DNA of 23,611 bases, taken from a virus. Positions within the stretch are counted from its first letter, which is position 1. Every line of letters starts with the position of its first letter. The position numbers and the translations under genes are program-made. A model generated the notes under the pieces. The model saw only the letters and a program-made list of their open reading frames with translations. It made no database searches and was not told the origin of the DNA. The DNA is taken from the IMG/VR virus record IMGVR_UViG_3300037153_000663, positions 1-23,611 of that record. One strand, written 5' to 3'. This document shows positions 8,869-21,417 of the stretch, piece after piece.

Positions 8869-8895
8869 CACTATTCTCCTTTGCTGCTATGTAGT

Positions 8896-8923
8896 ATTAT
8901 AGCATACACCCCAGGGACTACAA
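8896..8923 (-). promoter_or_regulatory. Strong extended -10 promoter for leftward small-gene operon
   Basis: Minus strand: TTGTAG (8918-8923), 16-bp spacer ending TATGC, TATAAT (8896-8901). The TGC before the -10 gives an extended -10. It lies just downstream of the repeat array and upstream of the Cys-rich gene at 8868. Confidence 0.8.
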
Positions 8924-8949
8924 GCATCTTGTTAGGCGCTCATTTTGCT

Positions 8950-10455
8950 TGGTACACTTCGTTCTGATGGCTCGCTCTCTGTCTTTGGTGCTCTTCACTG
9001 GCATGGCTCGCTCCCTGTCCTTGGTACTCTTAGATCCAATGGCTCGCTCTTGCCATTTGGCACACTTCACGTGTTTGGCTCGCTCGTCTCATCTGGTACT
9101 CTCTTCGAAGATGGCTCGCTCTCTATCCTTGGTGCTTTCAGGTCATATGGCTCGCTCTCGGAGACTGGTATTCTCGCAACCTATGGCTCGCTCATATCTC
9201 ATGGTACTCTCCGTGGCTCTGGCTCGCTCTGCTATTATGGTGCTCTCGGTCATCATGGCTCGCTCCCACTTGATGGTACTCTCCTGGCGTTATGGCTCGC
9301 TCGTCTTGGCTGGTACTCTCCGGTTCTTTGGCTCGCTTGTCCTCACTGGTACTCTCGCTATCTATGGCTCGCTCGTCCTCTGTGGTACTCTCGAACTCCT
9401 TGGCTCGCTCCAGGTATATGGTACAACTCTCGCTACATGGCTCGCTCTTCATTCATGGTACTCTCCTATGGTCTGGCTCGCTCTTGTGCTGTGGTGCACT
9501 CTTGTCGTATGGCTCGCTCCGTTTCTTTGGTGCTCTCGCCTCTTATTGGCTCGCTCTGTGTGCATGGTACTCTCAGGTATTGTGGCTCGCTTCTCTCGAA
9601 TGGAACTCTCTAATTTTATGGCTCGCTCTATAGATATGGTACTCTTCCCCTCTTTGGCTCGCTCTCCGTCCTTTGGTACGCTCTCATATCTTGGCTCGCT
9701 CTCAAGCATTGGTGCTCTCCGGACATTTGGCTCGCTCTGTTCCTTGGGTGCTCTCAGACCCGCTGGCTCGCTCTATTCTTTTGAAACTCTCCGGATAGGT
9801 GGCTCGCTCCTTTTCTATGGCACATTCTGTTATCATGGCTCGCTCTTTGAGTCTGGTACTCTCTCCCGGCATGGCTCGCTCCGTAGATCTGGTACTCTTC
9901 CGTACTCTGGCTCGCTCATTCAATATGGTACTCTCTTTTCTATTGGCTCGCTCACGCCTTGTGGTACTCTGAAACCAAGTGGCTCGCTCTCTCGTGTGGT
10001 GCACTCTCTTTTCTGGCTCGCTCTGCTATCATGGTGCTCTCGACTATGCTGGCTCGCTCTGGCTGTCTGGTGCTCTCTTGGGAAGTGGCTCGCTTCACTC
10101 ATCTGGTACTCTACCCTATGATGGCTCGCTCTGCGCTGTTGGTGCTCTCATCTAACATGGCTCGCTCGTCGATCGTGGTACTCTTCTATCATATGGCTCG
10201 CTCTGGGGCGTTGGTGCTCTCATTTGGTATGGCTCGCTCATACCCTATTGGTACTCTCCAGTCATTTGGCTCGCTCTCCTTGTATGGTACACTCCGTAAC
10301 GTGGCTCGCTTTCAGGATATGGTATTCTCGGGTTGCATGGCTCGCTCGTCCATCGTGGTACTCTCGTTGCGATTGGCTCGCTCCGCTTCGCTGGTACTCT
10401 CTGATTACTTGGCTCGCTCTGAAGCTCTGGTACTCTCTCAGCCTTAGGCTCAAGG
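8950..10455 (-). repeat. TIGR-like dual-spacer guide RNA array (36-bp units)
   Basis: About 1.5 kb of 36-bp units. On the + strand each reads TGGCTCGCTC, 8 variable bases, TGGTACTCTC, 8 variable bases; as minus-strand RNA, GAGCGAGCCA-N8-GAGAGUACCA-N8. The first box occurs 41 times from 8968 to 10410, plus a degenerate copy (AGGCTC) at 10446. Of the 41 spacings, 34 are exactly 36; the others are 37 (five), 35 and 34. The TGGCTCGCTC box is nearly invariant (only a final T in four copies), whereas the second box varies (TGGTGCTCTC, TGGTATTCTC and others). Spacers look unrelated to one another. Unit length, dual short spacers and adjacency to a Nop/IS110-type gene match TIGR arrays, whose transcripts are processed to 36-nt tigRNAs. 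Direction is inferred from the tas gene, whose stop codon overlaps the first degenerate repeat. Confidence 0.88.
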
Positions 10456-11250
10456 CCAGTTCGGCGGTAACACTTCATGGGTGTGCCCATGATCCCTGGT
10501 CAGGATATAGGGCTTCGGTGCATCCTGCCCTGTTTCCATCTTCCACCACACCGCCTGCATGTGTGATAAGAAGATCTTGACCGCCCACCGACGTGCGCGG
10601 GCATCAATCTGTGCTGGTGGAAGCTTGCCGTTGCTCAGGTGCTTGTAGGCATCAGTATTCTTATTGAACTTTGCCTTCAGCGTTTCGGCAACAGCCGCGT
10701 TGTCACCCCGGTTATTCCTGGCTATTTCATATTCCTTGCGCTCTCGATAGAGTTTCCCGTAAAAGCACTCCTCCCTGTTACTGAACTTCATGAACGATTG
10801 CCCGATGTGCCAGCAGAGGGTTTTCAGCCCTGCATTCCAGGGCCGCTTTTGACCTTTTTCCCATTTGCTGGTAGGGTCCAATCCCGCATATCGCCAGATG
10901 TGCCCTGCCGTCGGCGCTTCCTTAATGTTGATGTGAGCCATCAACCCGGCTGCGATAACCGGGCCGATTCCGTATATGCTCTTCATCCATGTGCCGATAG
11001 GCTTGGTGTTGCTGTATCGATCCAGCGCCGCTTTCAGTTGGCTTTCCAGCATTTCATTTTGACTGAAGAACCAGGCGAGAAGAGCGTGTGGTTCGTTTTC
11101 CATGCTTCGGACTTGGTTGCCAGAACGCTTGCGGTCCTCCTGTATGATGTAGTAAGCATCAACCAAGAACCGTGCCTCTGCATCCGATAAGGTGGCAGTG
11201 GCCGAACGCAAGTCTCGCGTCAGCCGCTGTAGGGTAGGTAGATCATCCAT
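10450..11250 (-). CDS. tas: Tas-like Nop-domain protein (TIGR-associated), no nuclease domain
   Basis: 266 residues. Residues 1-85 are helical and charged. The core at 90-156 (SIYGIGPVIAAGLMAHI, then HIWRYAGLDPTSKW, KGQKRPWNAGLKTLCWHIGQSF) is the region annotated in many databases as IS116/IS110/IS902 transposase; known structural work links this fold to the Nop domain of box C/D RNPs and to Tas proteins. A second helical block follows (FYGKLYRERKEYE, 163-175; ARRWAVKIFLSHMQAVWWKM, 219-238). There is no N-terminal DEDD domain as in IS110 transposases, and no HNH or RuvC motif, so it should bind a guide RNA and a target without cutting. CAGGAG precedes the ATG, which overlaps the upstream stop (TAATG). 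The repeat array begins at its stop codon. An isolated transposase relic is the main alternative, but the array argues against it. Confidence 0.85.
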   Translation of the reverse strand: MDDLPTLQRLTRDLRSATATLSDAEARFLVDAYYIIQEDRKRSGNQVRSMENEPHALLAWFFSQNEMLESQLKAALDRYSNTKPIGTWMKSIYGIGPVIAAGLMAHINIKEAPTAGHIWRYAGLDPTSKWEKGQKRPWNAGLKTLCWHIGQSFMKFSNREECFYGKLYRERKEYEIARNNRGDNAAVAETLKAKFNKNTDAYKHLSNGKLPPAQIDARARRWAVKIFLSHMQAVWWKMETGQDAPKPYILTRDHGHTHEVLPPNWP

Positions 11251-11525
11251 TAGTGTCTCCTGTAGTTTTTGGCGTGGAAGGGATAGAACCCTTTACGAAA
11301 GGAACCATCCAGGATATCCAAGTTTTGGTGTATCCCGGCAACATCGTACATAAACAAATCCTCTGGCGCATTAAGCATTTCTTGCAGATTTAGTGGGCAA
11401 ATATCATAATGAACTATACTTATTTCACCCTTGATTTGGGATGTTCTTATGTCTATGCCTCTTTTCATGTACTCCTTTACTGCTCGAACTGCAATCAGCC
11501 TGATGAGTTGCAATGAATCTATCAT
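11250..11525 (-). CDS. Small protein co-transcribed with tas
   Basis: 91 residues from the ATG at 11525 (MIDSLQLIRLIAVRAVKEYMKRGIDIRTSQIKGEISIVHYDICPLNLQEMLNAPEDLFMYDVAGIHQNLDILDGSFRKGFYPFHAKNYRRH). AGGGG from the promoter palindrome serves as its ribosome site. Its stop shares one base with the tas start, so tas translation depends on it. I do not recognise a family: an N-terminal helix, a beta region and a basic tail are visible. It may be an accessory of the Tas system or a regulator, on position alone. Confidence 0.68.
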   Translation of the reverse strand: MIDSLQLIRLIAVRAVKEYMKRGIDIRTSQIKGEISIVHYDICPLNLQEMLNAPEDLFMYDVAGIHQNLDILDGSFRKGFYPFHAKNYRRH

Positions 11526-11530
11526 GTGTG

Positions 11531-11575
11531 GTCCCCTGTACAATGCTATTGTAGCATATGTACAGGGGACTGCAA
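11531..11575 (-). promoter_or_regulatory. tas-operon promoter inside a 40-bp palindrome
   Basis: Minus strand: TTGCAG (11570-11575), 16-bp spacer ending TATGC, TACAAT (11548-11553). Around it GTCCCCTGTACA (11531-11542) and TGTACAGGGGAC (11559-11570) are perfect 12-bp arms, and the centre ATGCTA/TAGCAT (11543-11548, 11552-11557) is a second inverted repeat. The -10 is at the dyad centre and one arm holds the ribosome site of the first gene. This fits an operator for a dimeric repressor or a leader hairpin that hides the ribosome site. Confidence 0.82.
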
Positions 11576-20778: not shown

Positions 20779-21417
20779 ATGCAACTCAACCCCTACGTCC
20801 AGACCAACGCGCCTGGAATGTTCAACATTGAGTCTGATGGACTCATTGTTGGCACAGCCTATCCAGACCCGGCAGCACGATTCGCACTTTCCGGTGGCTG
20901 GCTCGCTCAGTCCGAGACTCTTCCCATGTGGGGTGGAGTTGGTATTTCGGAACACGTTCCCGCGGAACGATTGGCGGCGGTCACAGCCAATCCGCCAAAT
21001 GTTCCCACTGCTCCTGCTGGGCGGGCGGATGTTTCTCTGGGCGGGTTTATCGGTCGAGCAACGGCGGACGCGAACCTTACTGGCTTTAGTGTTTTCGACC
21101 AGAACTACGCTGCGATTAATTCACCACAGTCCCCGGTTCCGTGCACGGAAAAGGGTGGCTTGGTGAATTTCTACCGGCTCGGATGCGGTATCCGTGTTGC
21201 ATTGGCAATCGATCCAACACTGGTGAGCTTGGAAGGCGGTTTGATCAATGCGGCCGTCGCCTGGGACTACACCAACCAGAAGATCATTGCTGGGAGTGGT
21301 TTCCCTGGTAAGATTCTGGCAATCAAGACCGTGAACTGTATGGTTCCAGTCTACTCTTCGGGGACTGGGTTCATTACATGGAACTACAACGGAGCTGCGG
21401 CAGTCGTTCTGCTGTAA
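20779..21417 (+). CDS. Structural cement/decoration-like head protein
   Basis: 212 residues. GGAG stands 8 nt before the ATG. The N-terminal region MQLNPYVQTNAPGMFNIESDGLIVGTAYPDPAARFALSGGWLAQSETLPMWGGVGISEHVP and the closing ILAIKTVNCMVPVYSSGTGFITWNYNGAAAVVLL are beta-rich, as in small capsid decoration or cement proteins that sit beside DUF2184 capsids. It directly precedes the capsid gene. Function is by position and composition. Confidence 0.68.
   Translation: MQLNPYVQTNAPGMFNIESDGLIVGTAYPDPAARFALSGGWLAQSETLPMWGGVGISEHVPAERLAAVTANPPNVPTAPAGRADVSLGGFIGRATADANLTGFSVFDQNYAAINSPQSPVPCTEKGGLVNFYRLGCGIRVALAIDPTLVSLEGGLINAAVAWDYTNQKIIAGSGFPGKILAIKTVNCMVPVYSSGTGFITWNYNGAAAVVLL

Follow-up and report, generated by a model that had tools for sequence, protein, structure and literature searches.

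The described systems closest to the locus reported here are tandem interspaced guide RNA (TIGR) systems of the TasA type, such as FpTIGR of Flavonifractor plautii (Faure et al. 2025, PMC12045711), in which a Nop-only TasA protein is encoded beside a dual-repeat array of 36-nucleotide (nt) units with edge and loop repeats and truncated edges. The 2025 description left open what the guides naturally target, what the nuclease-free TasA does and where the spacers come from (PMC12045711). We analyzed a locus that shares these features in a 23,611-base phage fragment, the entire IMG/VR record IMGVR_UViG_3300037153_000663 (hereafter, "the window"), together with its relatives in other phages and in bacterial genomes. 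As judged from sequence and a predicted structure, the locus belongs to the published TIGR-Tas kind and is not a transposon. We consider it probable that the window carries a TIGR-TasA system whose guides would silence the early genes of rival phages without cutting them.

Relative to TasA systems of the FpTIGR type, the window has spacers of 8 nt instead of 9 and 42 units where 5-15 are usual (PMC12045711), with repeats of its own: GAGCGAGCCA for the edge and GAGAGYACCA for the loop. A consensus scan of the minus strand downstream of the array found no rho-independent terminator; such a terminator is typical of TIGR arrays but is no criterion for them, and divergence of the box motifs with covariation is allowed (PMC12045711). 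TIGR-TasH of Salicola phage CGphi29 is likewise phage-borne, with 16 nt of spacer per guide, and TasH is both the top fold match of the window protein and its only relative in INPHARED (31.5% identity over 34% of the protein). However, TasH has an N-terminal HNH nuclease, which the window protein lacks. TIGR-TasR (9mty, Thermoproteota) is alike in its Nop core, which aligns from query residue 36, and in the box C sequence CCA in both repeats; it differs in its RuvC domain, in its loop and edge sequences and in box D, which is UG in TasR and GA(G) in the window. Phage-borne CRISPR mini-arrays are also inherited lists of guides, and at least one TIGR array is aimed at a related phage. In contrast to CRISPR, the units in the window are dual-repeat with spacers split between two strands, and no Cas or adaptation gene was seen beside the array (the three genes scanned there, tasA, a DUF6874 gene and one of 238 amino acids (aa), gave no Pfam or PHROG match to Cas proteins).

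A Nop-domain gene and its dual-repeat array

The minus-strand array (10451-8935) has a period of 36 nt, each unit consisting of an edge repeat (10 nt), spacer A (8), a loop repeat (10) and spacer B (8); a few spacers have 7 or 9 nt. Perfect copies of the edge 9-mer AGCGAGCCA occur 41 times at 8968-10418, 34-37 nt apart, against 0.27 expected (standard deviation 0.53) in dinucleotide shuffles of the window, and a 42nd match lies away from the array at 20899. The edge is near-invariant (G in 36 and A in 4 copies at base 1, 40/40 at every other position) and the loop is laxer. Both repeats start with GA(G) and end with CCA (box C), the box C/D motifs that edge and loop have in common. The array begins with a 5'-truncated edge, GAGCC, at 10451-10447, overlapping the TGA stop codon of the adjoining tasA gene on the same strand, and closes with a 3'-truncated edge, GAGCGCC, at 8941-8935. 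These observations bear out an earlier note on this DNA, which had described a dual-repeat array of 36-nt units starting at the stop codon of a Nop-type gene. Its count of about 41 guides (82 spacers) has to be revised, as the 42 loop repeats, from 10437 down to 8959 and each midway between edges, give 42 guide units and 84 spacers. Inside the array, the open reading frames (ORFs) called on the plus strand (222, 390, 113 and 162 aa) and on the minus strand (81-100 aa) are spurious products of the 36-nt period.

The 266-aa product of tasA is labeled a transposase by both annotation systems, as the same note had predicted for automatic annotation: Pfam gives Transposase_20 (1.5e-5) and no other family, and PHROG gives PHROG 4285 "transposase" (5e-48). 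These labels are what speaks for an IS110-family transposase that happens to lie beside an unrelated tandem repeat. IS110/IS621 bridge-RNA recombinases do share a Nop-like RNA-binding fold with the window protein, but they have a DEDD domain and a bridge RNA, whereas the window system has neither and carries an array of many guides; there is no DEDD or RuvC domain in the 266 aa, and only the C-terminal Nop-like part matches IS110. The best PDB sequence matches are TasR (9mty, 3.2e-15) and TasH (21kl, 1.3e-10), with IS621 at 4e-3. The structural comparison with Tas and IS110, which had been set beforehand as a test, gave the same order: for an AlphaFold2 model (pLDDT, the model's own confidence score, 92.3; 47 aligned relatives), the first 11 Foldseek matches in the PDB were all TasH or TasR (E 8e-8 to 2e-4), followed by IS621 (3e-3). 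Tas structures thus outscore IS621 by orders of magnitude in both sequence and fold. In the fetched viral loci, moreover, array units lie within 1.5 kb of 95 of the 96 TasA ORFs, on the same strand every time. The Tas matches and this co-occurrence of array and gene refute the transposon reading, to which we give a negligible probability.

In the alignment, residue 36 of the query corresponds to residue 124 of TasR; the N-terminal RuvC part is therefore missing. Because the protein has no N-terminal RuvC or HNH part, the sequence and the model identify it as TasA, the nuclease-free Tas. The TIGR-Tas identity proposed in the note therefore stands, with every core feature that can be tested in sequence present and the effector subtype now specified.

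Table 1. Coordinates of the TIGR-TasA locus and its neighboring gene in the window
Feature	Position	Strand	Basis or extent
TIGR dual-repeat array, 42 units	8935..10451	-	Truncated edge GAGCC (at tasA stop) to truncated edge GAGCGCC
41 full edge repeats GAGCGAGCCA, box C = CCA	8968..10419	-	Exact 9-mers vs shuffles; 10-bp consensus
42 loop repeats GAGAG(T/C)ACCA, alternating with edges	8950..10437	-	Truncated ends and pairing test on 1,683 guides assign edge and loop
tasA, 266-aa nuclease-free Nop-domain protein	10450..11250	-	Pfam, PHROG, PDB sequence and fold matches
DUF6874 gene, 97 aa, ends at tasA start; candidate operon partner	11250..11543	-	Pfam DUF6874, 1.4e-10

What a guide specifies

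In TasR, each of the two spacers pairs with a different DNA strand (PMC12045711). From this rule and the published cut sites we derived that a target should read 5'-A-revcomp(B)-3', i.e., spacer A followed by the reverse complement of spacer B, rc(B). If A and rc(B) were neighbors in natural DNA, the dinucleotide formed by the last base of A (A8) and the first base of rc(B) should follow natural dinucleotide odds. We scored this junction in 1,683 unique 8+8 guides from 196 viral loci, with 1,000 within-locus shuffles as the null. The A+rc(B) junction reached a Z score of 4.05, with none of the 1,000 shuffles as good, and its excess per pair (0.0127) is comparable to that of truly adjacent bases (0.0107). 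The wrong arrangements gave 0.4 (B with the A of the next unit), -2.5 (A+B), 0.7 (B+A) and 0.85 (rc(A)+B), and two positive controls inside one spacer gave about 4. Among all 64 position pairs, A8-B8 shows the strongest association (G = 28.4); beyond this junction, comparing A and B position by position for identity or complementarity yielded nothing consistent. Palindromic targets are in small excess among the guides, perhaps for compositional reasons.

The reading frame is also coherent through the A+rc(B) join at gap 0 (Z 2.25-2.85), with every control below 1.6 in size; in the first run of this coding-frame test the positive control gave 12. The guides thus resemble unbroken 16-bp stretches, A and then revcomp(B), that are coding at least in part, and the statistics support, for the family, that the two spacers of a guide address opposite strands of a single adjacent target. 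By the same pairing test, GAGCGAGCCA is the edge repeat and GAGAGYACCA the loop repeat.

Two guides of the window itself, at 9157 and 9049 on the minus strand (TATGACCT/AGGATAGA and TTGGATCT/AGGACAGG), differ as targets at 5 of 16 positions, mostly third bases of the codons for an xDLLS peptide, as though one gene were targeted in two versions. This codon-phase pattern in near-duplicate guides is suggestive by eye, and a family-wide test of it was not significant.

A candidate target and competing explanations

The one clear target case is in Acidobacteriaceae KBS 96, whose genome contains a prophage with a TasA 53% identical to that of the window and an array of six guides. A second prophage in the same genome, at about 6.33 Mb of contig C1, is recognized by its genes for capsid, small terminase, helix-turn-helix (HTH) repressor and integrase. 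Three of the six guides match this second prophage within 911 bp, all at gap 0. The guide TAAAAGCA/TTCGATTC matches at 16/16 positions in an excisionase-like HTH gene, while CTCCAGGT/ACTTACAA (14/16) and TTTGCCCG/GTGGCTTG (13/16) match in a gene whose replication-type label is weak (PHROG 345, E 0.004). Both genes are oriented divergently from the repressor, the usual arrangement for early phage genes. At the imperfect sites, several of the differences are synonymous (TGT/TGC, GCT/GCC, GGG/GGA), as would be expected if the guides had been made against a homologue of the targeted gene. A distant homologue of the replication-type gene (59% identical across the part that matches) is also present in the TasA prophage itself, with strong differences at both sites.

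Several controls bear on this cluster. In 0.28 Mb of the KBS 96 genome, none of 3,000 composition-shuffled guide sets did as well, and none of three wrong arrangements of the guides matched its quality. Among all guides in 4.1 Mb it is the only cluster with the right geometry; one control arrangement produced a single weaker cluster. IMG/VR scans with two of the KBS 96 guides returned 33 and 1 stretches; of the 33, about a third come from a single unrelated family of phages and the others are scattered. No relatives of the targeted replication gene were found in IMG/VR. That both prophages reside in one chromosome would hardly be allowed by a cutting enzyme, whereas a nuclease-free binder would allow it.

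On this evidence and by analogy with published Tas systems, we envisage the following mechanism for the window. Transcription of the minus strand through tasA and the array would yield an RNA that is cleaved in the edge repeats, releasing about 42 tigRNAs of 36 nt, each of which would be bound by a TasA dimer via its box C-like CCA ends. Spacers A and B would then pair with opposite strands of a contiguous 16-bp site, with the two-strand binding taken from those published systems and the geometry from the family statistics. Being nuclease-free, TasA may hold and bend the DNA, blocking transcription or replication instead of cutting. Judging from the array of one relative, the guides of the window are most probably aimed at coding DNA of other phages, especially the early genes of rival temperate phages, which would give the carrier phage an advantage over its competitors.

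The guides of such a locus might instead act on host genes, for regulation or for takeover of the host by the phage. The coding-frame coherence fits any coding target, including a host gene. One guide in the locus L144 exactly matches a site of its own genome that lies immediately upstream of an M23 peptidase-like gene, and ccmF of a Halomonas has a 15/16 match as a possible host-gene target. However, these two are single matches, AT-rich and Shine-Dalgarno-like or imperfect, and near chance, and the sole multi-guide cluster sits in a rival prophage and not in host genes. We regard action on host genes as unlikely. More improbable still is that TasA serves as an RNA-guided architectural factor for its own phage genome, in DNA bending, integration or partition. 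Such a role was raised in the original paper, where the target of TasR is bent by ~180 degrees and ParB-like genes share an operon with TasA at some loci (PMC12045711). Against it, guide matches in the carriers' own DNA show no excess, 42 different guides are not what one or two own sites would lead one to expect, and the two genes upstream of the window tasA gave no Pfam match to ParB. Peptides of 5 aa derived from guides occur 86 times in proteins of the guides' own contigs against 71 expected, a weak excess.

A number of results weigh against the silencing of rival phages. The native-target case comes from a single array, in a phage other than that of the window. For the window's own guides, the paired-spacer search suggested in the earlier note came back empty: in 1.84 Mb of related phage DNA, whole contigs included, there was no target, with no exact match and one 14-mer with one mismatch. 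Exact A+rc(B) matches, both among guides and in 1.1-4.1 Mb of phage DNA, were no more frequent than with other arrangements or with the pairings shuffled. In other genomes bearing TasA or prophages, own-genome matches were at chance level or ambiguous, such as one in a host 5' untranslated region (in genome G021) and the ccmF match in Halomonas. The junction signal is weak in the second guide sample taken alone (481 guides, Z 1.6) and absent from the GTDB guide set (166 guides, Z -0.2). With these points set against the KBS 96 cluster, we hold to the silencing of rival phages as the probable function of the window locus. The broader proposition, that phage TIGR-TasA arrays in general are an inherited anti-rival system holding 16-bp coding pieces from competitors' early genes, silenced by TasA, we rate as an even call.

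Distribution of TasA loci and implications

We surveyed IMG/VR with one protein scan and three repeat-pattern scans, in which both TasA and these repeats proved widespread among phages. Well over 150 phage DNA stretches carry the edge repeat or a close variant, although several stretches may share one contig. A scan of GTDB returned 26 TasA relatives, mostly in metagenome-assembled genomes (MAGs), plus Halomonas sp. NO4 and Acidobacteriaceae KBS 96, and most have the same type of array. Chromosomal TasA is rare: among 396 Acidobacteriota genomes it occurs in one, KBS 96 itself. None was found in plasmids. Loci L145, L146, L147, L148, L156 and others, from MAGs assigned to Chloroflexi, Woesearchaeota, Planctomycetota and Proteobacteria, have almost the same edge repeat, GAGCGAGCCA or a close variant, while their loops and period (34-36) vary.

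Arrays evidently turn over quickly, since related ones have some units in common but not others, and some of their units are duplicated or slightly changed. Identical or near-identical units recur inside one array in L145 (1313-1730), L117, L038, L023 and L100, with 34 such pairs in the viral loci, so units can evidently duplicate and then drift. One phage recovered from two metagenomes (IMG/VR contigs L003, 56.8 kb, and L004, 82.5 kb) carries no fewer than seven separate TIGR arrays. They are scattered over both strands within 20 kb and total 54 units with identical repeats, although only one TasA gene was found. In L021 (761-2242), L065 (351-1832) and L125 (3367-4785), the TasA frames are 473-494 aa long, with ~200 extra N-terminal residues that have no Pfam match; the extension may be a novel domain joined to TasA, or just an open frame upstream of it.

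The window also contains terminase, portal and major-head genes, and the major head proteins of Pantoea phage PdC23 and Klebsiella phage Chronis share ~59% identity with the one it encodes. Relatives of the DUF6874 gene occur only in L024 and L012 among the fetched loci, so it is not a conserved tasA partner. Similar short elements (CCC.GGGACT.CAAGC beside TATAAT- or TGTAC-like sequence) lie at 8890-8930, just past the end of the array, and at 11530-11575, just upstream of DUF6874-tasA, and are perhaps a shared promoter or operator. Four copies of a 9-bp tandem repeat, AATGTACAC, lie at 2065-2101 in an intergenic GTACAC-rich region.

Because PHROG 4285 aligns with the whole of TasA, its label (transposase; integration and excision) likely hides TIGR systems in phage annotation and leads to an underestimate of their number. 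Our literature search, which lacked most subscription journals and separate preprints, found no report of a native target for any TIGR system, which does not establish priority. What would be new to a specialist is the KBS 96 case, together with the contiguity statistic. The window is a long, clean example of a TIGR-TasA locus, and its relatives answer statistically what a guide is, namely a contiguous 16-bp address. If TIGR-TasA does act against rivals, KBS 96 would provide the first native target of a TIGR system known to us, and the early genes of its rival prophage would be a concrete target that can be tested directly.
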